Origin: Gammaproteobacteria bacterium LSUCC0096
Lineage (GTDB): Bacteria; Pseudomonadota; Gammaproteobacteria; Pseudomonadales; Litorivicinaceae
NCBI GenBank assembly: GCA_008087055.1
Contig: VIEA01000001.1
Span: 1,364,014 to 1,428,013 of the forward strand
Direction of reading: 5' to 3'
Length of the DNA stretch: 64,000 nucleotides
Part shown: piece after piece, positions 2 through 9,708 of the stretch
Position numbering within the stretch: position 1 is the first letter of the stretch
Layout: the number at the start of each line of letters is the position of its first letter
Notes under the pieces: model-generated
Told to the model about the DNA's origin: nothing
The model's database searches: none
Seen by the model: only the letters and a program-made list of their open reading frames with translations
Position numbers and translations under genes: made by a program

Positions 2-1378
2 ACGGACTACCGCTCAAGCTTTTCTAAAGCGGTGATCCAACGACTACCCTCAGAATCATCCGGAGCCATTGGAGCTCTAGCAATCGAAGGCACCGAACCC
101 GTTGCTGCTCGTTTGGGTCGGTATCCAACATTACGTGCACTTGCCCTGATCCAGCCGATTCTGGTCTTGCTTGTCATGGGCTACATCCACTGGCCAATTG
201 CGCTGGGTATCCTCATCACGACACCGCTCATTCCCCTGCTGATGGCACTCATTGGCATCGGTGCAAAATCAGCCAGCCAAAAACAAGTCGACGCACTGAC
301 TCGATTGGGCGCGCATTATCTCGATCGAATTCGAGGACTCGAGACATTGTGGATGCTCGGCGGCGCTCGCAATGTTGGCGCTGAAATTGAAGACAAGGCA
401 GACCAACTAAGACGTTCAACCATGGGTGTTCTAAAATTGGCTTTCCTAACATCAGCGGTCCTCGAGTTCTTCAGTTCACTTGCCATCGCAATGATCGCGG
501 TCTACATCGGCTTATCTCTGTTAAATCTCATTACACCACTGTTCGGCTTACCCTTATCGCCGCTCGAAGGCCTCTGCTTATTGGTTCTTGCACCCGAATT
601 TTATAACCCCATTCGACGGCTCATGGCTGCTTGGCATGATGCGTCTGAAGCGAAAAGTGCCGATGAAAAAGTCAAAGCAGTACTCGGAACGCAATGGCAA
701 ATTCCGCAAGAACATGAAGTAGAAAATAACCCGTCATCTGCATTGCTCTCGCTTCAGAACTATTCAGTCGGATTCGATCCTGAATCTCCGCTCATACAAC
801 CGGTTGATCTCGCAATTCAGACAGATGATCTCTGTGTCATTTTTGGACCCTCAGGCTCGGGTAAAAGTCAGTTTCTAGGGAGCCTACTTAATGGGAATGC
901 ACGACTCTCGGGTTCTATCCACATGGATGGGCAAACAATTCGATCACTGACAGATCAACGCCAACACATCGCATGGATGGGCCAATCACAGTGGTTTGAT
1001 GAGGGCAGTATTCGTCACGCTTTGAGTTATGGCCAACCAACTGCTGAAGATCAACGCTATCTGGATATTCTTGATCAAGTTGGGCTCTTAGAACAGCTCG
1101 GTCAAAAGCCTCTAGATCGGGAGCTCGGACCGCGAGGAGCTGGCCTTTCTGGAGGACAATTAAGACGACTGGGACTTGCCCGAGCTCTGCTCAGACAACC
1201 ACGACTTCTAATCCTCGATGAGCCGACGGCACATCTTGATGCTGACTCAGCTGACCAATTAGCTCAATTAATCCGTGATCTCAAAACCACATGTTTACTG
1301 GTGACTCACGATAGTCGATTTGAAAATGAGACGCTCATTTACGATCTGAAAAATCGTTCTTTGGAACGTCGCTCATGA
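2..1378 (+). CDS. cydD: Glutathione/cysteine ABC exporter subunit CydD (5' end outside window)
   Basis: The frame is open to the left edge, so the GTG at 32 is internal and the N-terminal part of the membrane domain is missing. What remains has the later transmembrane helices and a full ATPase domain: Walker A GPSGSGKS near residue 280 of the visible part, signature LSGGQLRRLGLARA and Walker B LLILDEPT. The stretch reading GAHYLDRIRGLETL after the helices is typical of CydD. In the family, CydD pairs with CydC to export cysteine and glutathione to the periplasm, which is needed to assemble cytochrome bd. Its stop overlaps the cydC start (ATGA), so the two are co-translated. No cydAB is seen here. 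Confidence 0.9.
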   Translation, partial: TDYRSSFSKAVIQRLPSESSGAIGALAIEGTEPVAARLGRYPTLRALALIQPILVLLVMGYIHWPIALGILITTPLIPLLMALIGIGAKSASQKQVDALTRLGAHYLDRIRGLETLWMLGGARNVGAEIEDKADQLRRSTMGVLKLAFLTSAVLEFFSSLAIAMIAVYIGLSLLNLITPLFGLPLSPLEGLCLLVLAPEFYNPIRRLMAAWHDASEAKSADEKVKAVLGTQWQIPQEHEVENNPSSALLSLQNYSVGFDPESPLIQPVDLAIQTDDLCVIFGPSGSGKSQFLGSLLNGNARLSGSIHMDGQTIRSLTDQRQHIAWMGQSQWFDEGSIRHALSYGQPTAEDQRYLDILDQVGLLEQLGQKPLDRELGPRGAGLSGGQLRRLGLARALLRQPRLLILDEPTAHLDADSADQLAQLIRDLKTTCLLVTHDSRFENETLIYDLKNRSLERRS

Positions 1379-2934
1379 CATTACGCGGTCTTATCAAACA
1401 CCTGAATGTGAAAATGACTCCGCTCATTTTAGCGATCGTTCTAACCATCATCATGACCTTATCATCACTTGGACTATTAGCCTTGTCAGGCTGGTTCTTA
1501 AGTGCCGCGTCGATCGCAGGGCTCGCCGCTTTAAGCGGAGCTTTCGGTTTCAATATCCTACAACCGTCGTCCATGATTCGAGGCTTGGCTGTCAGCCGGA
1601 CGCTATCACGTTACGTAGAGCGCTTATTGAGCCATGACGCGACATTGCGTGTGGTTGTGAAGTTGAGGCGTTTCATTTTCGATGGCCTTTTAGATGGCAT
1701 TGGGCACCGGCCAAGCAATGACCAAGAGGCGCTCGACCGATTAGTACAAGACGCCTCAGTGGTTGAAGGTGCATTATTGCGAACCCTTCTTCCCCTGGTT
1801 GGCGCCGTTATCGCAGGATTATTTGTACCAATCCTCGCAGCGATTGTTGCACCCTCAGCTGTGATCCCCGCATTCATTCCTCTCGCAGTCTTCATCGGCA
1901 CTTTAGTGGTCCGTCGGCCGGGTTATCGAGCGCTTGCCGAACAGATTGATGTTCAATCACGCAGAGCGAGAAACCGCGCCATCGCGCTGGCTGATGGCCG
2001 CTATGAACTACAACTGGCATTTGACGATAACGAGTTAAGTGAGCTGACTCGCGATGCATACAAACCACTTGCCGATCTGCGACTGGCCAAGGTATCAAGA
2101 GAGCTGACAGACAAAGTTTGCATGGGTGTAGCCCATGCTGTCTCACTTGTTTGGATCGCGACCTTACCCATTGATCTTCCGATATTGGTCGCATTACTCA
2201 TCAGCTCGCTTGGGGTCGGTGAATTATTAATTCCCGGTATCTTAGTGTCATTCGAGTCACGTCGCGTTGAACTGTCGCTTGCGCGCCTACCTCACACTCA
2301 AGACGCACCCGAGGCACAATCGCAGTCTGATGGGCTCAACGTATCGGATTTACAATTCAGTCCAACGCCCGACTCGGACCCGCTTTGTGCACCCTTCAGC
2401 TTCCAATTAAGCAACGGCCACCATATACGTTTAACCGGGCCATCAGGCGTTGGTAAAACGACCTGCCTGAAAACAATTATCGGACTTCTCCCGGCATATT
2501 CAGGTTCAGTGACAAAGCCTGATACGGTTGGCTTAGTTGAACAAACACCCTGGCTACCATCAGATGTTCTCTGGCGATCGCTCACACTCGGCCTGCCAGA
2601 GCAGCCAAATGAGTCAGAGTTCTGGAGAGCCCTGCAAGTAGTTGAACTCGATGAATGGGTGAACAATCTCCCAAATCAAGAACGGACTTGGATTGGGACA
2701 GATGGTGTGATGCCATCTGGGGGACAATGGCGACGTCTTGCAATTGCGCGTCTGATTCTTCAAAAACCACAACTTGCTTTACTTGATGAACCAACTGAAG
2801 GCCTTGAAGAGGAACTTGCTTACCGATTAATGGAGCGTCTGGTTGAGGAGTTCAAAGACCACATACTAATTGTTGTCTCTCACCGAGATGAAGCAACCCG
2901 CTTCATCCCAAATGAGATTCGACTCACGCCTTAA
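1375..2934 (+). CDS. cydC: Glutathione/cysteine ABC exporter subunit CydC
   Basis: This 519-residue protein has an N-terminal exporter membrane domain (about residues 15-285) followed by an ATPase with Walker A GPSGVGKTT, signature PSGGQWRRLAIAR and Walker B LALLDEPTEGL. The early segment LSGWFLSAASIAGL is characteristic of CydC. It forms the heterodimer with the upstream CydD, whose stop it overlaps by 4 nt. All ATPase motifs are intact, in contrast to the degenerate ABC proteins further on. Its stop shares a TTAA with the stop of the convergent hydrolase gene. Confidence 0.92.
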   Translation: MTLRGLIKHLNVKMTPLILAIVLTIIMTLSSLGLLALSGWFLSAASIAGLAALSGAFGFNILQPSSMIRGLAVSRTLSRYVERLLSHDATLRVVVKLRRFIFDGLLDGIGHRPSNDQEALDRLVQDASVVEGALLRTLLPLVGAVIAGLFVPILAAIVAPSAVIPAFIPLAVFIGTLVVRRPGYRALAEQIDVQSRRARNRAIALADGRYELQLAFDDNELSELTRDAYKPLADLRLAKVSRELTDKVCMGVAHAVSLVWIATLPIDLPILVALLISSLGVGELLIPGILVSFESRRVELSLARLPHTQDAPEAQSQSDGLNVSDLQFSPTPDSDPLCAPFSFQLSNGHHIRLTGPSGVGKTTCLKTIIGLLPAYSGSVTKPDTVGLVEQTPWLPSDVLWRSLTLGLPEQPNESEFWRALQVVELDEWVNNLPNQERTWIGTDGVMPSGGQWRRLAIARLILQKPQLALLDEPTEGLEEELAYRLMERLVEEFKDHILIVVSHRDEATRFIPNEIRLTP

Positions 2935-3605
2935 ACGAGACGAATTTCCAAGTCTTTCAATCCATCAATTTTGCCATGCAAATGATCTCCGCGAACCACA
3001 GCACTGACTCCTGAAGGCGTTCCTGTGAATACTAAATCCCCCGCCTTCAGTTCCTGTAATGTTGATAGAAAGGCAATCAACTCCACCGTGTTATAGGCCA
3101 TCTGATTGATATCGCCCGCTTGACGCTCTTGGCCATTCACATCAAGAGTGATTGACGCATTCTCCATCAAACCAGTTTCTGATTTTGGAGTAACAACACC
3201 CATGACTCCTGCGTCATCGAAGTTTTTCGCAATTTCCCAAGGGCGACCTTTGTCTTTGGCTTCGGCCTGACGATCACGACGCGTAAAATCGAGTCCCACC
3301 GCATAGCCAAAGATAATTGCTTCTGCTTCTTTGAGGCTCAGATTACGACCACCTTCTCCGAGCACTGCAACTAGCTCTACTTCGTGATGCAAATCTTGAG
3401 TATGACTTGGATACCGAACATCCGGTCCAAATGTGAGCGCATCGAAGCTTTTCTGAAAATGAAAAGGTGCCTTTCGATCAACTTCGCCACCCATTTCTTT
3501 TGCATGCTCTTCATAGTTTTTAGCGATACAAAAGATGCGGTTCACTGGAAGGCGACGACCATCTGTTGTTAAAAATTCTGGATGTGTTGGGGAATTCCAA
3601 TTCAT
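2931..3605 (-). CDS. Fumarylacetoacetate hydrolase family protein (YcgM-like acylpyruvase)
   Basis: The protein is 224 residues from the ATG at 3605. It has the FAH fold hallmarks: FCIAKNYEEHAKEMGG near the N-terminus, the metal-binding HHEVELV segment, FTRRDRQ, and the C-terminal GDLVFTGTPSGV loop. Short FAH proteins of this type are acylpyruvate hydrolases or oxaloacetate tautomerase/decarboxylases. The exact substrate cannot be read here. An in-frame GTG at 3614 is an alternative start and lies where transcription from the predicted promoter would begin. Longer reading frames upstream overlap the divergent gene and are not needed by the family length. Confidence 0.82.
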   Translation of the reverse strand: MNWNSPTHPEFLTTDGRRLPVNRIFCIAKNYEEHAKEMGGEVDRKAPFHFQKSFDALTFGPDVRYPSHTQDLHHEVELVAVLGEGGRNLSLKEAEAIIFGYAVGLDFTRRDRQAEAKDKGRPWEIAKNFDDAGVMGVVTPKSETGLMENASITLDVNGQERQAGDINQMAYNTVELIAFLSTLQELKAGDLVFTGTPSGVSAVVRGDHLHGKIDGLKDLEIRLV

Positions 3606-3629
3606 AGGGATCACGAAACCTCGTATACT
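3601..3629 (+). promoter_or_regulatory. Predicted sigma-70 promoter for the QueD-like gene
   Basis: TTCATA (3601-3606) and TATACT (3624-3629) are 17 nt apart. The ATG of the QueD-like gene is 7 nt after the -10, the usual start-site distance, which suggests a leaderless message. There is no Shine-Dalgarno sequence before that ATG. The -35 overlaps the start codon of the divergent gene. Confidence 0.38.
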
Positions 3630-3650
3630 TTTTGTATGAGTATTTACCAA
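3622..3650 (-). promoter_or_regulatory. Predicted sigma-70 promoter for the FAH-family gene
   Basis: Read on the minus strand, TTGGTA (3650-3645) and TATACG (3627-3622) are separated by exactly 17 nt. Transcription would start about 3615, right at the in-frame GTG, so the message could be leaderless. The -10 shares the palindrome GTATAC with the opposing promoter. This is a pattern match only. Confidence 0.35.
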
Positions 3651-4079
3651 ACCATTAAAACCTTCGACAACTACCCATGCAGTCATCGACAGTGGCGGCA
3701 TCAGGGTCATTGTAGATTCATTCACGGCTACTCACGTAGCTTTAAAATGACTTTTGGTTGCACAGATTTAACTGAATCTGGGTTCGGAGTCGATTTTGGT
3801 GAATTTTCAGATATCAAGGATTGGCTTTCACACTGGTTCGACCACACAACACTGATCAATGAAGACGATCCTGAACTCCAGTTGTTCAAAGAACTCCACG
3901 ACAAAGAAATCTTGGATTTGCGTGTGTTACCAAACGTCAGCATGGAACGAACCGCTGAATTCGTATTTGAATATGTCGATACCTGGATACGCGAACAAAC
4001 CAACAACCGATCATTTTTAATCGAAGTCGAATGCAGAGAAAACAGTAAGAATGCGGGTATTTATCGACCCAACGTTTGA
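3636..4079 (+). CDS. 6-pyruvoyl-tetrahydropterin synthase / QueD-like protein
   Basis: Starting at the ATG at 3636, the 147-residue protein follows the T-fold synthase family: SHRQWRHQGHC then FIHGYSRSF, GFGVDFGEFSDIKDWL, FDHTTLINEDDP, and the C-terminal Glu of VECRENSKN. The family zinc site normally has a His outside and HxH inside the second motif. Here the second motif reads HGY, so one expected ligand is Tyr. From memory a whole subfamily shares HRQWRH...HGYSR, so this is probably not decay, but its reaction may differ from queuosine synthesis. No other queuosine genes are nearby. Its 3' end overlaps the convergent MFS gene by 19 nt. Confidence 0.75.
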   Translation: MSIYQTIKTFDNYPCSHRQWRHQGHCRFIHGYSRSFKMTFGCTDLTESGFGVDFGEFSDIKDWLSHWFDHTTLINEDDPELQLFKELHDKEILDLRVLPNVSMERTAEFVFEYVDTWIREQTNNRSFLIEVECRENSKNAGIYRPNV

Positions 4080-5230
4080 TTGATACGTCCATAGAGCCAC
4101 ATACACAAAGCACCGACTCCACCGATCATGGCGAGCATAATCAAAAATGCATTCCATCCAAACAACTCGTAAACGTAACCCATGAGCCAAGCACCAAGCG
4201 CACCTCCCGCGTAATAGCAGGACACATAGAGACCATTCACAACGCCACCAAGTGAACGCGCATTATGGTTCACTTCAGAGGCAGCCAGCGTGTGAATTAA
4301 AAACATCCCAAGACACATCACAAAGACTTGCGCGATCAGCATCCAGACATCGCCCAATGACAGCGCCAGTGATCCAATCATCACAATAAAACCCATCATG
4401 GCGACGCGAATCGGTCCACCGAAGCGTTTAGCGAGCCAGCCAGCCGTTAACGCTGATACGATCCCAATGCTATATCCGAGATAGCTCTGACCAATCAAGC
4501 CAGTCGATGCATTGGGGTCGACCTCATTAATTCGAAACGGCAAATAATTCAGGTAGCCAGCAAATACCCAAAACATACAGAGAACCGACAAATAGATCAG
4601 GGCGTTTCCTCGACTTGTCATTGCTTGCTTAATCAGTGCTGCATCAGGCTTAATCAAATTCAACGGTTTCGGTGTTGCGCGCCGCCAAGGAGTCAATGTG
4701 ACCAACACCAAAAGAATGGCCCACATCGAAGCGACCCATTCCCATTCAATCACTGCAGCCAGTTGACCCGACACGACACGCCCAGCCATACCACCAAAAA
4801 TTGTCGACGAAATATAGAGCGCCATCACACGTGATAATTCAGCTCCTTCTCGACCAGATGCCAAATAGGCCATTGTTGCAGTCATGATCGCCGGAAGCAG
4901 AGCGCCTTGGATCAGCCGAAGAATCAACATGCCCTCATAAGAATGGACAAACCCAGACCATGCCATAGCGATCGCCAATAAAGGCAATGCCCATTTCAGG
5001 ATTGTCAGTGCACTGAGTTGTTTTAAAAAAATGCCATAGCTGAGTGGAGCAATTGCCAGAGGGATTAAGGTCACAGAGACCAAAAGACCTGCCTCAGGTT
5101 TTGAAACCATGAAGCGCTCAGCAAGTTCTGAGAGCATTGGCTGCGGTGCATACAAGACGCAGAAACAAATCATGATCGAGAGATACAAAAATACCTCTCC
5201 TTGATGGTTTGATGCTTGTTTTGTGTTCAC
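4061..5230 (-). CDS. MFS transporter (YnfM-like)
   Basis: This 389-residue protein has about twelve hydrophobic helices in the usual 6+6 pattern and a central basic loop around WRRATPKP. The N-terminal segment CVLYAPQPMLSELAERF is typical of the YnfM/arabinose-efflux group of major facilitator exporters. The substrate is unknown. It starts with GTG overlapping the stop of the preceding cNMP-domain-like gene (GTGA, 5227-5230), so it is translationally coupled to the degenerate ABC cluster and may work with it. Confidence 0.8.
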   Translation of the reverse strand: MNTKQASNHQGEVFLYLSIMICFCVLYAPQPMLSELAERFMVSKPEAGLLVSVTLIPLAIAPLSYGIFLKQLSALTILKWALPLLAIAMAWSGFVHSYEGMLILRLIQGALLPAIMTATMAYLASGREGAELSRVMALYISSTIFGGMAGRVVSGQLAAVIEWEWVASMWAILLVLVTLTPWRRATPKPLNLIKPDAALIKQAMTSRGNALIYLSVLCMFWVFAGYLNYLPFRINEVDPNASTGLIGQSYLGYSIGIVSALTAGWLAKRFGGPIRVAMMGFIVMIGSLALSLGDVWMLIAQVFVMCLGMFLIHTLAASEVNHNARSLGGVVNGLYVSCYYAGGALGAWLMGYVYELFGWNAFLIMLAMIGGVGALCMWLYGRINQTLGR

Positions 5231-5691
5231 TTCAGAAAATTCTGCCTGAGTTCATGAAAGCGCCTGACTCCGCGCTCGAAGCCCCGTATCAAAGCAACTG
5301 GAACTTCCTGGGTCTCGCACAAATCGCGATAAAGACGACCAGCTAACATCGGCGTCACGCTCTCATGAAATACACGCTTTCTCCGAGGCTCGACAGATAA
5401 CATTTGTCCAAAACGACCGGAGTCGAGATAAATCAGCGTCATTGAACGGTCAGCAAGCCACTCTCGATCCGTCATCCAGCCTGTGAGAAATTCATCCAAT
5501 CCCACAATACCCGGGGACCTTTCTCCGCGTCGCATCGCAAATTGCCCACGTAGCACGATATAAATATCAGGAAAATCATCTTCAGCAATCAGGGTTTCAC
5601 CAGGACTCAGCGTTTTAATCACAGCATTATCGAGCCAATGCCGATATTCTTGCTCGGTCAGAGCTCCAAGGAAAAGTTGCTGCTCAATCAT
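5227..5691 (-). CDS. Cyclic nucleotide-binding-domain-like protein (degenerate export cluster)
   Basis: Starting at the ATG at 5691, which overlaps the preceding stop by 8 nt, the product is 154 residues. Residues about 8-100 look like a cNMP-binding/cupin beta-roll: TLSPGETLIAEDD, then YIVLRGQFAMRRG, then a GLDEFL turn. A basic helical C-terminus follows (RGFERGVRRFHELR). The phosphate-binding Gly-Glu and Arg of true cAMP receptors are not evident and there is no helix-turn-helix, so it is probably a structural or regulatory partner. Such domains accompany NHLM-type export ABC proteins. The call as a domain is fairly safe; the function is inferred. Confidence 0.6.
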   Translation of the reverse strand: MIEQQLFLGALTEQEYRHWLDNAVIKTLSPGETLIAEDDFPDIYIVLRGQFAMRRGERSPGIVGLDEFLTGWMTDREWLADRSMTLIYLDSGRFGQMLSVEPRRKRVFHESVTPMLAGRLYRDLCETQEVPVALIRGFERGVRRFHELRQNFLK

Positions 5692-7522
5692 GCGCAATCT
5701 CCCAATGAATCGAAGCTTGACCTTTGAGCAGCTCATTTCGATCAACGACAAATCGCGTACCGGAGCGCTCAACCAAACTATGGATGACATGCGCTCGCGA
5801 CGATTGATCGAGACCCATCAACCAATGATCCAACCACATCAATTGACCTTTTCGCGACAACGCCCTCGCCAGTTTCAGGCGATTCATGCCATGTGGACCC
5901 GCCATCGATTGCAAAGCCCCTAATGGTGCATTGAGACGATCATGGAGCAGTTCAATCCAATGATTCGCAGATAGTGCTTGGAGATGCATCTCGAGCGTTG
6001 AGGGCTCGATGCCTTGCTCAATAAATAACCATTCCCCAACGGTCGAAACTTCAGAATCCCTGGGGTGATCCAACATGATGACTGAATATGCCAACACTCG
6101 AGGGTCTAAACGTGCCACGTCCATCCCACCGACGCGAACAACACCACGCTCGGGAGACACTTGGCGGAGTAATAAATACTTAAGCGTTGAAAGACCTGCA
6201 CCTTCGGCAGCCGTAATTCGAACCAAGCTGTCATCCGGACAATGGAAGTTCATTTGATCAAACAGCGGCGCTTCGCCTGCATGACGACGAAACACGACTC
6301 CCTCGTATTGCACTTCACCACTCAACGCTAGTGGTCTTATTGTTTTACGACGGCCTTGCTCGGCCGGTGAATCAAAACTCACAGGCATGGCAGCTCGCAA
6401 ACGCTCAAGTAACAGGAGAGCCCCAAGGGATAGGCCTGTTAACACCACAGGTCGGACGTCATCAGTCGATGCGATCGCTGGAATCACTAAACTTGCTGCA
6501 ATGACAGAGCGACTGAACCGACTATACTCAGCCACCAATTCAATTCGGGCCACGACCCACTGACGCGCCTGGTCCCAGACCTCTAAAATACGCTCTCTGA
6601 CGGATGGCACGCCATCACGCGACAAGCGAAGTGAGAGCCAACGCATGGGTTGATCAATAGCGGGAAGATCTGGCAATAGTCGTCGCACATACACCCAGTA
6701 TGCTCCGCTAATCAAACAGCCCGAAAACATCAGTGATATTGCAAGTATTGGAGCTTCAAACAGAAGAATCAGCGTTGTCATTGCCAGTGCCGCAGCTAAA
6801 CCAACCAGTGAGACATCTCGAAACTGCTGCGCTAATAGGTGAATTGCCCAGATAGACAGAGCGCTGATTCCCAGCGAGCCAACAGCAACTGCTGAATAGT
6901 GATAACTCAAAGAGAAGCCTGGAGCCTCAAGAGCAACTAATGCGCAGAGCCAACTGACTACGGCGACGATCGACAATATCGAAGCGATAACCAAAACCAC
7001 CAGTGCTCGACGTTCTTCGGGGACCGAATCCTGTTCTAGAATTGTGCGTGGGACGTGGTCGGCAATCAGTGGTGTGACAACATCTGGCGACATTGGTTGA
7101 TTCAGTTTGATTGCTTGGTCCAATGACTCGCCAAACCAAGATCGGAATGTGGGCTGTGCTAACTTCACACTCCAGTCGACCAGACCATCATCTATTCCTG
7201 CGGAAGACATCATTTGACGGATCGGTTGAATCAGCTGATTACGACCTAAATCACCAAGTCTTGGTATGAGGCTTAACGGTAAGCGGCTCTCAAATGAGAT
7301 TGCGGTCTCCGCGATCAATTGAACACGGAGATAGTCTGACTCAGGCACCAAAAACCACCCGGATTCAGGGACTGGCATGGTACCGACTTCATCGCCTGCA
7401 ACCAAAACTCGAAGCCTGGCATGCCCCTCTTTCACTTGCCATAAGCGATCTCTAGCAAGGCCAGCTGACACCTTGCCGGCTTCGAGTCTAAAAATTTGTG
7501 GTTCAGTCAAGCTCAATGACAT
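5684..7522 (-). CDS. NHLM-ABC2-like exporter protein with degenerate ATPase domain
   Basis: This 612-residue protein has three parts: an N-terminal cupin/cNMP-like region (about 10-90), about five or six hydrophobic helices (172-375), and a C-terminal ABC-ATPase-like domain (about 400-612). The layout matches the second ABC protein of NHLM/NHLP peptide export systems. Every catalytic motif is changed. The Walker A position reads AEGAGLST (Lys replaced by Leu444), the signature reads AGPHG in place of LSGGQ, Walker B ends LDHW (Glu to His566), and the H-loop His is Asp. Flanking family sequence such as NRLKLARALSR is kept and the frame is intact. It therefore looks like a conserved pseudo-ATPase. 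It overlaps both neighbours. Confidence 0.7.
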   Translation of the reverse strand: MSLSLTEPQIFRLEAGKVSAGLARDRLWQVKEGHARLRVLVAGDEVGTMPVPESGWFLVPESDYLRVQLIAETAISFESRLPLSLIPRLGDLGRNQLIQPIRQMMSSAGIDDGLVDWSVKLAQPTFRSWFGESLDQAIKLNQPMSPDVVTPLIADHVPRTILEQDSVPEERRALVVLVIASILSIVAVVSWLCALVALEAPGFSLSYHYSAVAVGSLGISALSIWAIHLLAQQFRDVSLVGLAAALAMTTLILLFEAPILAISLMFSGCLISGAYWVYVRRLLPDLPAIDQPMRWLSLRLSRDGVPSVRERILEVWDQARQWVVARIELVAEYSRFSRSVIAASLVIPAIASTDDVRPVVLTGLSLGALLLLERLRAAMPVSFDSPAEQGRRKTIRPLALSGEVQYEGVVFRRHAGEAPLFDQMNFHCPDDSLVRITAAEGAGLSTLKYLLLRQVSPERGVVRVGGMDVARLDPRVLAYSVIMLDHPRDSEVSTVGEWLFIEQGIEPSTLEMHLQALSANHWIELLHDRLNAPLGALQSMAGPHGMNRLKLARALSRKGQLMWLDHWLMGLDQSSRAHVIHSLVERSGTRFVVDRNELLKGQASIHWEIAHD

Positions 7523-8732
7523 CCCCTTCCCACAAATCTGAAACGCTCGAGAAAACCAAAATACGGCAGTTGGCTGAGCCCAATCGGTTTAAGAGCTCCA
7601 TCTGCCGGTCGGCAGATAAAGGTGCCAATGCGTCCACCAGGATTAATGTGTCTGCGCCTTGCGCGAGCGCCCGAGCCACAGACAAAGCGGCGGCCTCTGA
7701 TGAGGAAAGGCCCTGATTATCAGGACCAATACGATAATTCAGTGATCCCCCAAACCGCTCTCGCCAATGATCAAAGCCGATCAAATCCATCAAATTACCG
7801 AAATGATATTCACCGACTTCGCTCGCATCCCAAGCGAAGTTACTTCGCAATGTACCCGGCAAAAACTCCGACTCAGGCCCTAAAACCGTAATCGGCTCTC
7901 CTTCGCGAACCAGTTCCTCGCTCGCTCTCAAGAGCATCTCAGGAACTTGAGTGCGTAATACGTGTACTCCAGGACCTTTAATGTTCAGCAAGTGACGAAG
8001 TTCACTCATCATTTTTTTAGGCTCACGTTCAGTTCGTACACGCGGGTTTTGAGTGAGTGCTCGTGCCTGCTTGAAATGGCGCGTCGGCATGAGATCAAGA
8101 AATAAAAAACCAAGCCCAACCACCCAGATTGATGCGGATAAATGCAGAACACTATTGAGTAACAACATTCCAATAATCGTACTGATCGCCAGAATACGCC
8201 CGCCTACGTCTCTCGAAAGACGCGGAATCCAATCAGGTGCCATTGCCTCAAGCGCAGCTTCTAAATCATTCCACTGAGACCTGTGGATGAGCGTGATCGA
8301 TGTATAGGTCGTGGATGCAAGAATAAGCGCGGTTAGAATCCAAAGTGGTGTCAATGAGGCATCAGTGACTTGGCCAAGGATACTGACCAACATTAGAAGT
8401 AGCAGTCGCGCAAGCACAACCAGAGTGAGAGCGAACCATTGAACTGTGAGGGCGTAATCAGGACTGTTTGGCTCAAGTACGTAGCCACCCACAGCAAATG
8501 CTTTTCGCCACCGTGTCACATGTATTTTTGAATCACCATCAACACTCATTACCCAACCAATCAATTGGTAACGAACGCGTTGAAGTAACCCTTTTTCATC
8601 AACAAAAACGGAGCCTGCGAGGGGAGGTTTGAGTCGGCGTTCTTTAACTTGGTAGCCGAGTGTTCCAGCTTCATCAGCGACAGCTTCAAAAGTCGCACCT
8701 GTCGCAATCAAACCATCAAGAATTGCCGTCAT
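7503..8732 (-). CDS. NHLM-ABC1-like exporter protein, degenerate peptidase and ATPase domains
   Basis: This 409-residue protein begins (1-92) with a segment resembling the second half of a C39-type leader peptidase, ending in RKAFAVGGYVLEP. No QxxxCG cysteine motif is present. About four hydrophobic helices follow (98-150 and 180-213), fewer than the six of normal exporters. The C-terminal part aligns with the later half of an ABC ATPase: PGTLRSN, then LSSSE in place of LSGGQ (342-346), then VARALAQGADTLILVD with Ala368 where the catalytic Glu should be. No Walker A can be found. It overlaps the next gene by 20 nt and the previous one by 4 nt. It is probably the partner of the 612-residue pseudo-ABC protein. 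Confidence 0.65.
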   Translation of the reverse strand: MTAILDGLIATGATFEAVADEAGTLGYQVKERRLKPPLAGSVFVDEKGLLQRVRYQLIGWVMSVDGDSKIHVTRWRKAFAVGGYVLEPNSPDYALTVQWFALTLVVLARLLLLMLVSILGQVTDASLTPLWILTALILASTTYTSITLIHRSQWNDLEAALEAMAPDWIPRLSRDVGGRILAISTIIGMLLLNSVLHLSASIWVVGLGFLFLDLMPTRHFKQARALTQNPRVRTEREPKKMMSELRHLLNIKGPGVHVLRTQVPEMLLRASEELVREGEPITVLGPESEFLPGTLRSNFAWDASEVGEYHFGNLMDLIGFDHWRERFGGSLNYRIGPDNQGLSSSEAAALSVARALAQGADTLILVDALAPLSADRQMELLNRLGSANCRILVFSSVSDLWEGDVIELD

Positions 8733-9235
8733 GGGTTCAGGCTACGCCCCAAAAGCTCCAAGAGACGGACGCGCCCACTGATCACAGTGACATCGCAATG
8801 TTCACCCGGTGCCGGAATATTGGCTCCTGATTCAGTGACAACCTGCTGCAGCCGCACACCCTCGTTAAATAGACGTTCAGCCAATAGACGGCTACCCACC
8901 CAATCACGAATATCTTGCACCGACAAAATATCGCCAGAATCTGTGAACACCTGTCCCGAGAGAGTAACTCCCTGGCAGGTTACATCGACACGTTCGCCAA
9001 GCGCCCGAGGCTGGATTGACGACGGAACAAACAACGCCACTTCTGCGCGCGCGGTATTTCCGAGACCACGGTGGGAAGTCACGACGCCAAGCGCTGTTTC
9101 TGTGTCTGCAACCCGGACCGCCCATAAGCTGATAGCCCAAATCACAATCAGTAGCGCAACAAATGGCCACAGCCACCACATGCGACGAGGCAATCCCAAG
9201 CTATCTGTCGCCGATTGGCGCATCTCTTCAGCCAC
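8729..9235 (-). CDS. Short HlyD-like membrane fusion protein (NHLM-type)
   Basis: This 168-residue protein has one membrane helix near the N-terminus (about residues 19-43, rich in Trp, Leu and Ile) and a periplasmic remainder. The C-terminal GEHCDVTVISGRVRLLELL resembles the end of NHLM-system HlyD proteins, and TETALGVVTSHRGLGN resembles the barrel strand after the helix. It is much shorter than a standard adaptor (300-400 residues), and no long coiled coil or lipoyl domain is visible. It overlaps the ABC1-like gene by ATGA, fitting an adaptor-plus-ABC unit. Confidence 0.55.
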   Translation of the reverse strand: MAEEMRQSATDSLGLPRRMWWLWPFVALLIVIWAISLWAVRVADTETALGVVTSHRGLGNTARAEVALFVPSSIQPRALGERVDVTCQGVTLSGQVFTDSGDILSVQDIRDWVGSRLLAERLFNEGVRLQQVVTESGANIPAPGEHCDVTVISGRVRLLELLGRSLNP

Positions 9236-9244
9236 TTAAGTCCC

Positions 9245-9655
9245 TCATAAAGTGGTCTCTAACTGACTCACAACATACCGGAATTTCAAGCGAGCCGCTT
9301 CCACATCAGCAAGCCCTTGAGCATCCGGTTGTGCAAGTCTCGTCTCAGCAGACATCGCAACAGCAATTGCGACACTCCAGGCTGATTTGTGCTGGCGAGT
9401 CAATGGAAGTTCGAGCGCCCAAACGGGCGTATTCACATTCCAAAGTGCACCGTGATCAACTTCTAAGTACCACTCAGAGATTCCGAGTAATGCTCCACTC
9501 CCTCGCACATGGCTTCGACATTCAAGCTGACCATCAAGAATCAATGTTGGCTTTGGGAAATGGACGTCAATTCCTGGGTCCAAATAGACACCCTGACCAT
9601 GATCAACGATCCATTTCAAATCTTGGTTTTCAAGATGTGCAATCCAAGGATTCAT
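9245..9655 (-). CDS. Cyclic nucleotide-binding-domain-like protein, first gene of the cluster
   Basis: This 136-residue protein has no signal peptide. The segments DLKWIVDHGQGVYLDPG, LILDGQLECRS and GALLGISEWYLEVDHG follow the pattern of a cNMP-binding/cupin roll (residues 1-90). A helical C-terminus follows (90-136). Canonical cyclic-nucleotide contacts and a DNA-binding domain are absent. It heads the coupled run that ends with the MFS gene, 9 nt before the HlyD-like gene and 66 nt after lysS. Function is unknown; by context it belongs to the same envelope complex. Confidence 0.5.
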   Translation of the reverse strand: MNPWIAHLENQDLKWIVDHGQGVYLDPGIDVHFPKPTLILDGQLECRSHVRGSGALLGISEWYLEVDHGALWNVNTPVWALELPLTRQHKSAWSVAIAVAMSAETRLAQPDAQGLADVEAARLKFRYVVSQLETTL

Positions 9656-9708
9656 CGGGTCACCGTCGAAGGCAAAGCGAATGGATCAACGCCTTTGAGT
9701 TCATCCAT
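9652..9708 (-). other. Possible 18-codon leader ORF
   Basis: An ATG at 9708 opens an 18-residue frame (MDELKGVDPF... ending STVTR) whose TGA overlaps the ATG of the following cNMP-like gene (ATGA). It fills most of the gap after lysS. Only a weak TGAGA precedes it. It could couple translation or be chance. Confidence 0.2.

Follow-up and report, generated by a model that had tools for sequence, protein, structure and literature searches.

A gene cluster encoding two ABC exporter-like pseudo-ATPases is kept under purifying selection across a genus of small-genome marine bacterioplankton

In a 64,000-nucleotide stretch of the genome of Gammaproteobacteria bacterium LSUCC0096 (GenBank assembly GCA_008087055.1, contig VIEA01000001.1, positions 1,364,014 to 1,428,013 of the forward strand; here called the window), six minus-strand genes spanning positions 4061–9655 form a closely spaced cluster. 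Five of them encode a pair of ATP-binding cassette (ABC)-like proteins without a catalytic ATP site together with three further proteins, are conserved across the genus and are under purifying selection; they suggest that a former pump has taken on another role across the genus, possibly that of a scaffold or signal relay. LSUCC0096 belongs to the OM252 clade, ‘Candidatus Halomarinus’, which is related to Litoricola and placed in Litoricola by GTDB; the genus consists of marine bacterioplankton whose genomes are small, and cultured strains such as LSUCC0096 and HIMB30 exist (PMC8269220). We label the cluster genes A to F, genomes by G-numbers and loci by L-numbers, and call the genome of the window “own”. 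The layout is exactly that given in the initial annotation of the window: a gap of 9 nt between A and B, followed by overlaps of 4 (B/C), 20 (C/D), 8 (D/E) and 4 nt (E/F).

The two central genes, C (7503..8732, minus strand, 409 amino acids (aa)) and D (5684..7522, minus strand, 612 aa), encode an ABC1-like and an ABC2-like pseudo-ATPase, respectively. Motif positions were taken from profile alignments with canonical nucleotide-binding domains (NBDs) and then counted over all rows (20 for D, 19 for C). In D, the Walker A Lys is replaced by Leu and the Q-loop Gln by Asp in every sequence, the Walker B Glu by His (17 sequences), Asn (two) or Gln (one), and Asp-Arg stands at the H-loop in 20/20. 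C lacks the Walker A half (0/19 have Walker A), its signature reads LSSSE and its Walker B Glu is Ala, each in 19/19. A catalytic ATP site, i.e., Walker A Lys, Walker B Glu and signature, was found in 0/20 D and 0/19 C sequences, and the loss of the ATPase motifs first noticed in the window alone extends to all relatives counted. Walker A was present in 42/42 members of the comparison panel; as 16 of these (LssB, MsbA) had been picked by a script that demanded Walker-like motifs, they are excluded from the fair figure, which is 26/26. Because both composite ATP sites lack the catalytic residues, the C-D pair is predicted to be unable to pump by the usual ATP cycle. The replacements are frozen across the genus, in C and D sequences sharing 44–96% identity with those of the window.

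Some residues of the nucleotide site persist in D, namely the Walker B Asp and the Ser/Thr after the lost Lys (20/20 each) and the D-loop Asp (17/20). Contrary to the reading we prefer, an ATP-binding complex could exist in which the atypical residues still bind nucleotide, or in which an ATPase encoded elsewhere cooperates. With the Lys, Gln, Glu and His positions all replaced and C without its Walker A half, we regard this as very improbable.

A–E were found, whole or in part, in 21/22 genomes of the genus (own included); the only exception, G003, is 60% complete and gave just weak partial matches even to a LysS query. Strong D orthologues occur in 19/21 same-genus relatives, and G017 has A, B and C at the end of a contig. 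All of A–E are present, and in order, in 17 of the 19 relatives examined, the clusters of G005 and G006 being cut by contig ends. The cluster layout is the same as in the window, with lysS upstream in 16 of the 17 (the contig of G010 stops short of it). Three same-family and 32 same-order genomes gave generic ABC matches only. A profile of D residues 1–395 matched 11/293 genomes of the order, every one in this genus; a B profile matched 2/369 genomes of the class, one being own and one judged spurious; and a scan of contigs of 84,980 species for C, which relies on a pair of short conserved peptides and would overlook remote relatives, returned 19 loci, all same-genus. On these searches, A–E appear to have no credible match outside the genus. 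A match to B from a different family (G689, E 6.7e-4) was rejected as a homologue: it is antisense to an open reading frame (ORF) that by eye resembles peptidyl-tRNA hydrolase, and no credible cluster neighbour accompanies it either.

Ratios of dN/dS (Nei-Gojobori, up to nine close pairs, overlapping gene ends kept in) were 0.00–0.20 for A–E vs 0.014–0.106 for lysS. Frames with stops were skipped (E of G005, three of F, seven of FAH and four of x165), and we think that most of those of F, FAH and x165 are extraction artefacts. Because of these low ratios, A–E are under purifying selection and not decaying, and conservation, seen in both synteny and low dN/dS, excludes chance. An operon decaying towards loss would account for the vanished nucleotide motifs, for the disrupted E of G005 and for the altered 5′ end of D in G001. 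This is extremely improbable in view of the dN/dS values, of the A–E sets of the 17 relatives with complete loci, in which all frames are open save the D start in G001, and of the frozen replacements. The initial annotation had argued from the window that the cluster is maintained and re-purposed, and had named canonical Walker motifs in relatives or a dN/dS near 1 as signs of simple decay; the genus-wide synteny, the absence of such motifs from the same genes of every relative counted and the ratios obtained bear it out.

Constraint is unevenly spread over the two ABC-like proteins. D comprises a beta-rich N-domain (residues 10–82), a helical membrane region (169–378) and a full-length degenerate NBD (about 400–596), with limits drawn from an AlphaFold2 (AF2) model; C, delimited by sequence and hydropathy, consists of an N-domain (about 1–92), hydrophobic stretches at 93–128 and 178–216, and a truncated pseudo-NBD (about 281–401). 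Among 19 D sequences, residues 169–285, which hold the first four membrane helices, are the least conserved part (6/117 positions invariant). The loop and long helix that follow (286–345, helix at 306–343) have 25/60 invariant positions, residues 346–380 have 7/35 and the two NBD pieces scored have 67/158. In C, 17 of the 33 positions of 150–182 are invariant. The membrane regions and NBDs were then compared with those of CydD and CydC as controls, in five genomes for D, CydD and CydC (G013 replacing G000 for CydC) and four for C, with Fisher tests whose p-values are indicative. Invariant positions numbered 56/212 in the membrane region vs 90/197 in the NBD of D (p 5e-5) and 40/126 vs 72/121 in C (p 1e-5). 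In the controls, the transmembrane domain (TMD) and the NBD held 162/317 vs 85/183 (CydD, p 0.35) and 134/315 vs 75/171 (CydC, p 0.85). D and CydD are alike in their NBDs (p 0.92) and differ in their membrane regions (p 1e-8). In C and D, it is the pseudo-NBDs and the stretches preceding them that are constrained, not the majority of the transmembrane (TM) helices; unlike in the CydDC of the same genomes, the membrane region is less conserved than the NBD.

This pattern bears on the idea of a gated passive channel, similar to CFTR and opened by a cytoplasmic ligand instead of ATP. The C profile weakly matches CFTR NBD1 among other ABC NBDs (E from 9e-5), in a list that is noisy and topped by a designed TIM barrel without passing stretch. 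Such a channel is very unlikely, given the scarcity of invariant positions in D 169–285 and only two strongly hydrophobic stretches in the hydropathy profile of C.

Judged by profile comparison, the NBDs of both D and C are homologous to those of type IV ABC exporters. D matches PF00005 at 25.2 bits (cut-off 25) and gave ABC matches in a profile search of the PDB, too; C has no Pfam match and no NHLM match up to E 1, and the ABC homology of its C-terminal part comes from profile comparison. The best NCBIfam models for D were CydD (55.8 bits), HlyB (51.8 bits) and an MsbA-related model (50.2 bits). The NHLM models, i.e., TIGR03794 (HlyD-type) and TIGR03796 and TIGR03797 (ABC1, ABC2), characterize the NHLP peptide export systems (described in PMC2887384), which the cluster resembled according to the initial annotation; D scored 43.8 bits against NHLM ABC2 (cut-off 709.4) and 37.8 bits against ABC1 (cut-off 853.3), below CydD. 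We further compared the proteins with panels of NHLP (7 HlyD, 8 ABC1 and 7 ABC2 proteins from ten NHLP HlyD loci), LssB, MsbA, CydD and CydC sequences. By hhalign, the D NBD reached 98.3% with CydD, 98.2% with NHLP ABC2, 97.9% with ABC1, 97.2% with LssB and 96.8% with MsbA, and the C NBD 96.9% with CydD, 95.1% with NHLP ABC1, 76.3% with LssB, 40.4% with MsbA and 17.7% with NHLP ABC2. The medians of hidden Markov model (HMM) scores for the D NBD were 39.2 (NHLP ABC2), 34.4 (MsbA), 30.0 (LssB) and 17.8 bits (CydD), and for C 13.9 (CydD), 13.5 (MsbA) and 12.4 (NHLP ABC1). The TMDs and N-domains of C and D had no match in the panels by hhalign. A specific descent from NHLP is unsupported, CydD being level or better by hhalign, even though the HMM medians for D lean to NHLP ABC2.

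A local duplication of the neighbouring cydDC genes was likewise considered and is unsupported: wider CydD and CydC panels gave 98.4 and 97.1% for D and 96.8 and 76.9% for C by hhalign, so that broad profiles put D nearer to CydD than to CydC, and there is no TMD match. With profiles built from the genus only, D prefers CydC (82.2 vs 20.0% for CydD) and C prefers CydD (76.0 vs 53.8% for CydC), which is the pattern predicted by a cydDC duplication and counts against rejecting it. C-D is best viewed as a relative of the type IV exporters that may descend from NHLP or from a cydDC-like pair.

Gene B (8729..9235, minus strand, 168 aa) is predicted to encode one N-terminal TM helix and a six-stranded barrel. 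Its AF2 model (pLDDT 75.4) shows a helix at 17–41 and six strands, with helices at 106–113 and 116–124 lying between strands. A Foldseek search yielded nothing at E 0.001; among the 50 matches listed, the first six were TdpAB (E 3.2e-3 to 1.2e-2), 18 were membrane-fusion-protein entries (MexA, MacA, AcrA-type, Spr0693; E 0.047–0.34), and the remainder were V-ATPase, racemase, initiation-factor and other entries. There is no sequence match between B and HlyD (0.4% with NHLP HlyD by hhalign), and TIGR03794 is not among the NCBIfam matches of B or of any of its 18 members. The six modelled strands and the weak Foldseek matches are reminiscent of HlyD-type and other membrane-fusion adaptors, and B is possibly a stripped membrane-fusion-protein domain, with a barrel that would be periplasmic. 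A conduit to the outer membrane via B is unlikely, because the AF2 model contains neither an alpha hairpin nor a lipoyl domain and 168 aa leave no room for them. Cys87 and Cys147, both in the predicted barrel, are invariant in 18/18 orthologues; a disulfide between them is possible.

The products of A (9245..9655, minus strand, 136 aa) and E (5227..5691, minus strand, 154 aa) are soluble by hydropathy. E scored 16.8 bits against the cyclic nucleotide monophosphate (cNMP)-binding family PF00027 (E 0.0069, below the cut-off of 27.5), and its profile weakly matched PKG/PKA-type chains in the PDB (E 0.004–0.6). A had no Pfam or NCBIfam match up to E 1 and is related to E by hhalign (77.4%, E 1.9e-5); seven of its His and Trp residues are invariant in 18/18 sequences. 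A cNMP-like nature is weakly hinted at for E, and for A only through E. The N-terminus of C has no Pfam match to C39 (0.3% with the NHLP C39 region by hhalign), and the cupin-like reading of the D N-terminus found no significant sequence match. The domain hints of the initial annotation hold for the ABC parts (D and the C-terminal part of C), faintly for the cNMP-like proteins, and found no significant match for HlyD, C39 and cupin.

The cluster resembles NHLP/NHLM loci in that a one-TM gene is closely followed by two ABC-like genes, both with extra N-terminal domains, and the order of B, C and D fits only if B is HlyD-like. It differs in that no NHLM model comes near its cut-off, no C39 was found, B has no hairpin or lipoyl domain, the catalytic residues are missing, two further cNMP-like genes are present and there is no precursor within A–E. 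The absence of a precursor peptide gene, already remarked on at the outset, holds for A–E (largest gap 10 nt across loci), the search having covered the cluster and not the rest of the genome. The likeness to NHLP is not borne out as ancestry, given the NHLM scores, the rank of CydD and the comparison of B with HlyD. A stripped peptide exporter, of NHLP or another type, that moves its substrate without ATP hydrolysis, by ion-motive force or passively, seems quite unlikely. With an HlyD-like B, it would share with true NHLP loci the order HlyD, ABC1, ABC2 with short overlaps, and the HMM medians of the D NBD favour NHLP ABC2. These points are set against the distance from the NHLM models, the lack of any NHLP match for B, the TMDs and the N-domains, the equal or better hhalign values of CydD, the weak conservation of D 169–285 and the missing precursor gene.

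From what is observed directly, i.e., the gene set, its conservation, the motif loss, the selection and the constraint in cytoplasmic parts, we infer that A–E, derived from a heterodimeric type IV ABC exporter, act independently of ATP as a scaffold or relay anchored in the membrane, a proposal whose chances of being right or wrong we consider to be evenly balanced. The products of A–E would form one inner-membrane complex that has ceased to use ATP. C and D would pair via their membrane-proximal segments and degenerate NBDs, and B, with its TM helix and barrel, would provide the periplasmic face. A, E and the N-domain of D, with their cNMP-like or cNMP-sized folds, would lie on the cytoplasmic side and probably bind no nucleotide. 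The pseudo-NBDs and cNMP-like proteins might serve as a cytoplasmic platform that binds a protein or small ligand, and this binding might be relayed through the membrane-joining segments to B, or partners might simply be held at the membrane.

Several observations weigh against this scaffold or relay. The dN/dS of D exceeded that of lysS in 7/8 shared pairs. In G005, a 68% complete metagenome-assembled genome, E is interrupted by stops (L038 2297–2920), which could stem from a sequencing error or from decay at this locus; the identity of F there is only 42%. In G001 (L033 6492–8297), the D frame matches only from residue 27–28, without a start codon near the expected place. The low conservation of the TM helices could alternatively reflect a broad or lipid-facing pathway, and the Fisher tests assume independent positions. 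The AF2 model of D (pLDDT 69.8, pTM 0.41) has a seven-stranded N-domain and, as we read it, six membrane helices (type IV exporters have six, with coupling helices); hydropathy is strong only at 170–277, which covers the first four of these six, and pLDDT is below 50 at 383–477, the Walker A half. Foldseek aligned about 540 columns of D to YbtPQ, HlyB and IrtB entries (E 6e-9 to 2e-8); because TM-scores were 0.2–0.3 at a root-mean-square deviation of about 20, the agreement is in local structure only, and the whole architecture is not reliably modelled.

The sixth gene, F (4061..5230, minus strand, 389 aa), encodes a transporter of the major facilitator superfamily (MFS; PF07690, 105.6 bits) and had initially been counted as part of the system. 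The relatives do not support this: F is absent (tblastn) in 8/19 and partial or less than 50% identical in others, and because of this absence it is not part of the conserved core. In G020 (L037 6607–7572), the MFS gene was not found and an opposite-strand ORF resembling, by eye, an EamA-type transporter takes its place; the F slot is variable. The patchy presence of F also matters for a regulatory subunit on the precedent of SUR, in which the pseudo-ABC core would itself transport nothing and would gate another membrane protein, e.g., F or a transporter encoded elsewhere. Such a subunit would suit the overlap of F with E in the window and the conservation of the pseudo-NBDs, which ranks among the highest; with F, the one partner looked at, missing from eight relatives and not obligatory, we consider it unlikely.

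If the scaffold or relay is compared with known systems, C and D resemble heterodimeric type IV exporters (CydDC, TM287/288, IrtAB, YbtPQ; also HlyB) in their NBD homology and in the helical membrane region of D, with a local Foldseek match along the length of D. They differ in lacking catalytic residues at both ATP sites and in the truncated NBD and shorter hydrophobic region of C. Exporters with one degenerate site, such as TM287/288-like and TmrAB pairs or MRP1, keep the other site active (PMC7756269); like them, C-D has lost catalytic residues at a composite site, but in C-D this applies to both sites. FtsEX, according to PMC11627006, is an ABC-superfamily complex that transmits a signal and does not transport. 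It differs in that its FtsE has ATPase activity, and the comparison is one by description. The initial claim that no described system has this composition was not contradicted in the open full-text literature searched (subscription papers and supplements lying outside this scope), where we noticed no exporter-like pair combining two dead sites with cNMP-like partners. Rather tentatively, A–E might even represent a new class of pseudo-ABC membrane complex, a transmembrane scaffold or relay of signals that works without ATP and is fixed in one marine genus. Its nucleotide-binding folds, a pair of NBDs with as many as three cNMP-like domains, would all have turned into non-catalytic binding modules. 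If true, an exporter-like pair that is dead at both sites and yet strongly selected would make the NBD directly testable as a structural platform independent of ATP; the cluster is kept by 21 of the 22 genomes in a genus of small-genome bacterioplankton, where unused genes are expected to be lost.

An apparent similarity between C and D, a shared ‘RLSRD’ element spanning 16 aligned columns, is no more than an impression (hhalign 0.5%). For E, a longer mechanical ORF begins at 5790; the aligned stretch contains in-frame stops in 11 relatives besides G005. Because these stops vanish once E is trimmed to its 154-aa body (E of G005 still has stops), the start is probably at 5691, and the longer ORF would not be the gene.

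Between lysS and A, some relatives carry an additional gene, Z (375 aa in G002; PF24827, AstE_AspA_cat). It was matched in 5/22 genomes, among them G005 and the two that diverge most (G006, G020); there was no match in own and 16 others, some of them incomplete. In G002, G010 and G020, A immediately follows Z and its start is overlapped by the Z end; the two ORFs overlap in G006, too (Z at L034 4748–5875, L037 11955–13082 and L036 1–912, where lysS is not reached). As a clue to a peptide pathway Z was rejected, since at 13 loci of other families the A, B and C profiles found no match beside Z homologues. One generic D-profile match (L106, E 2.7e-6) and two weak E-profile matches (L104) were seen there; by eye, at least three of the eight loci viewed have amino-acid uptake genes, from which we draw no functional link. 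In the window, an 18-codon ORF (9655–9708, minus strand) ends on the start of A with a TGA/ATG overlap; by eye, no relatives other than the closest, G013 and G015, have a similar frame. The ORF might be a coupling leader, or else what is left of gene Z.

A cydDC pair lies near the cluster in the window (32–2934) and at L021, L033, L036, L037 and L039, behind the FAH and QueD-like genes if the locus has them; in other relatives, e.g., at L023, the stretches retrieved showed none. The QueD-like gene of the window, a member of the 6-pyruvoyl tetrahydropterin synthase family (3582–4079, PF01242), is convergent to F and shares 19 nt with the F 3′ end.

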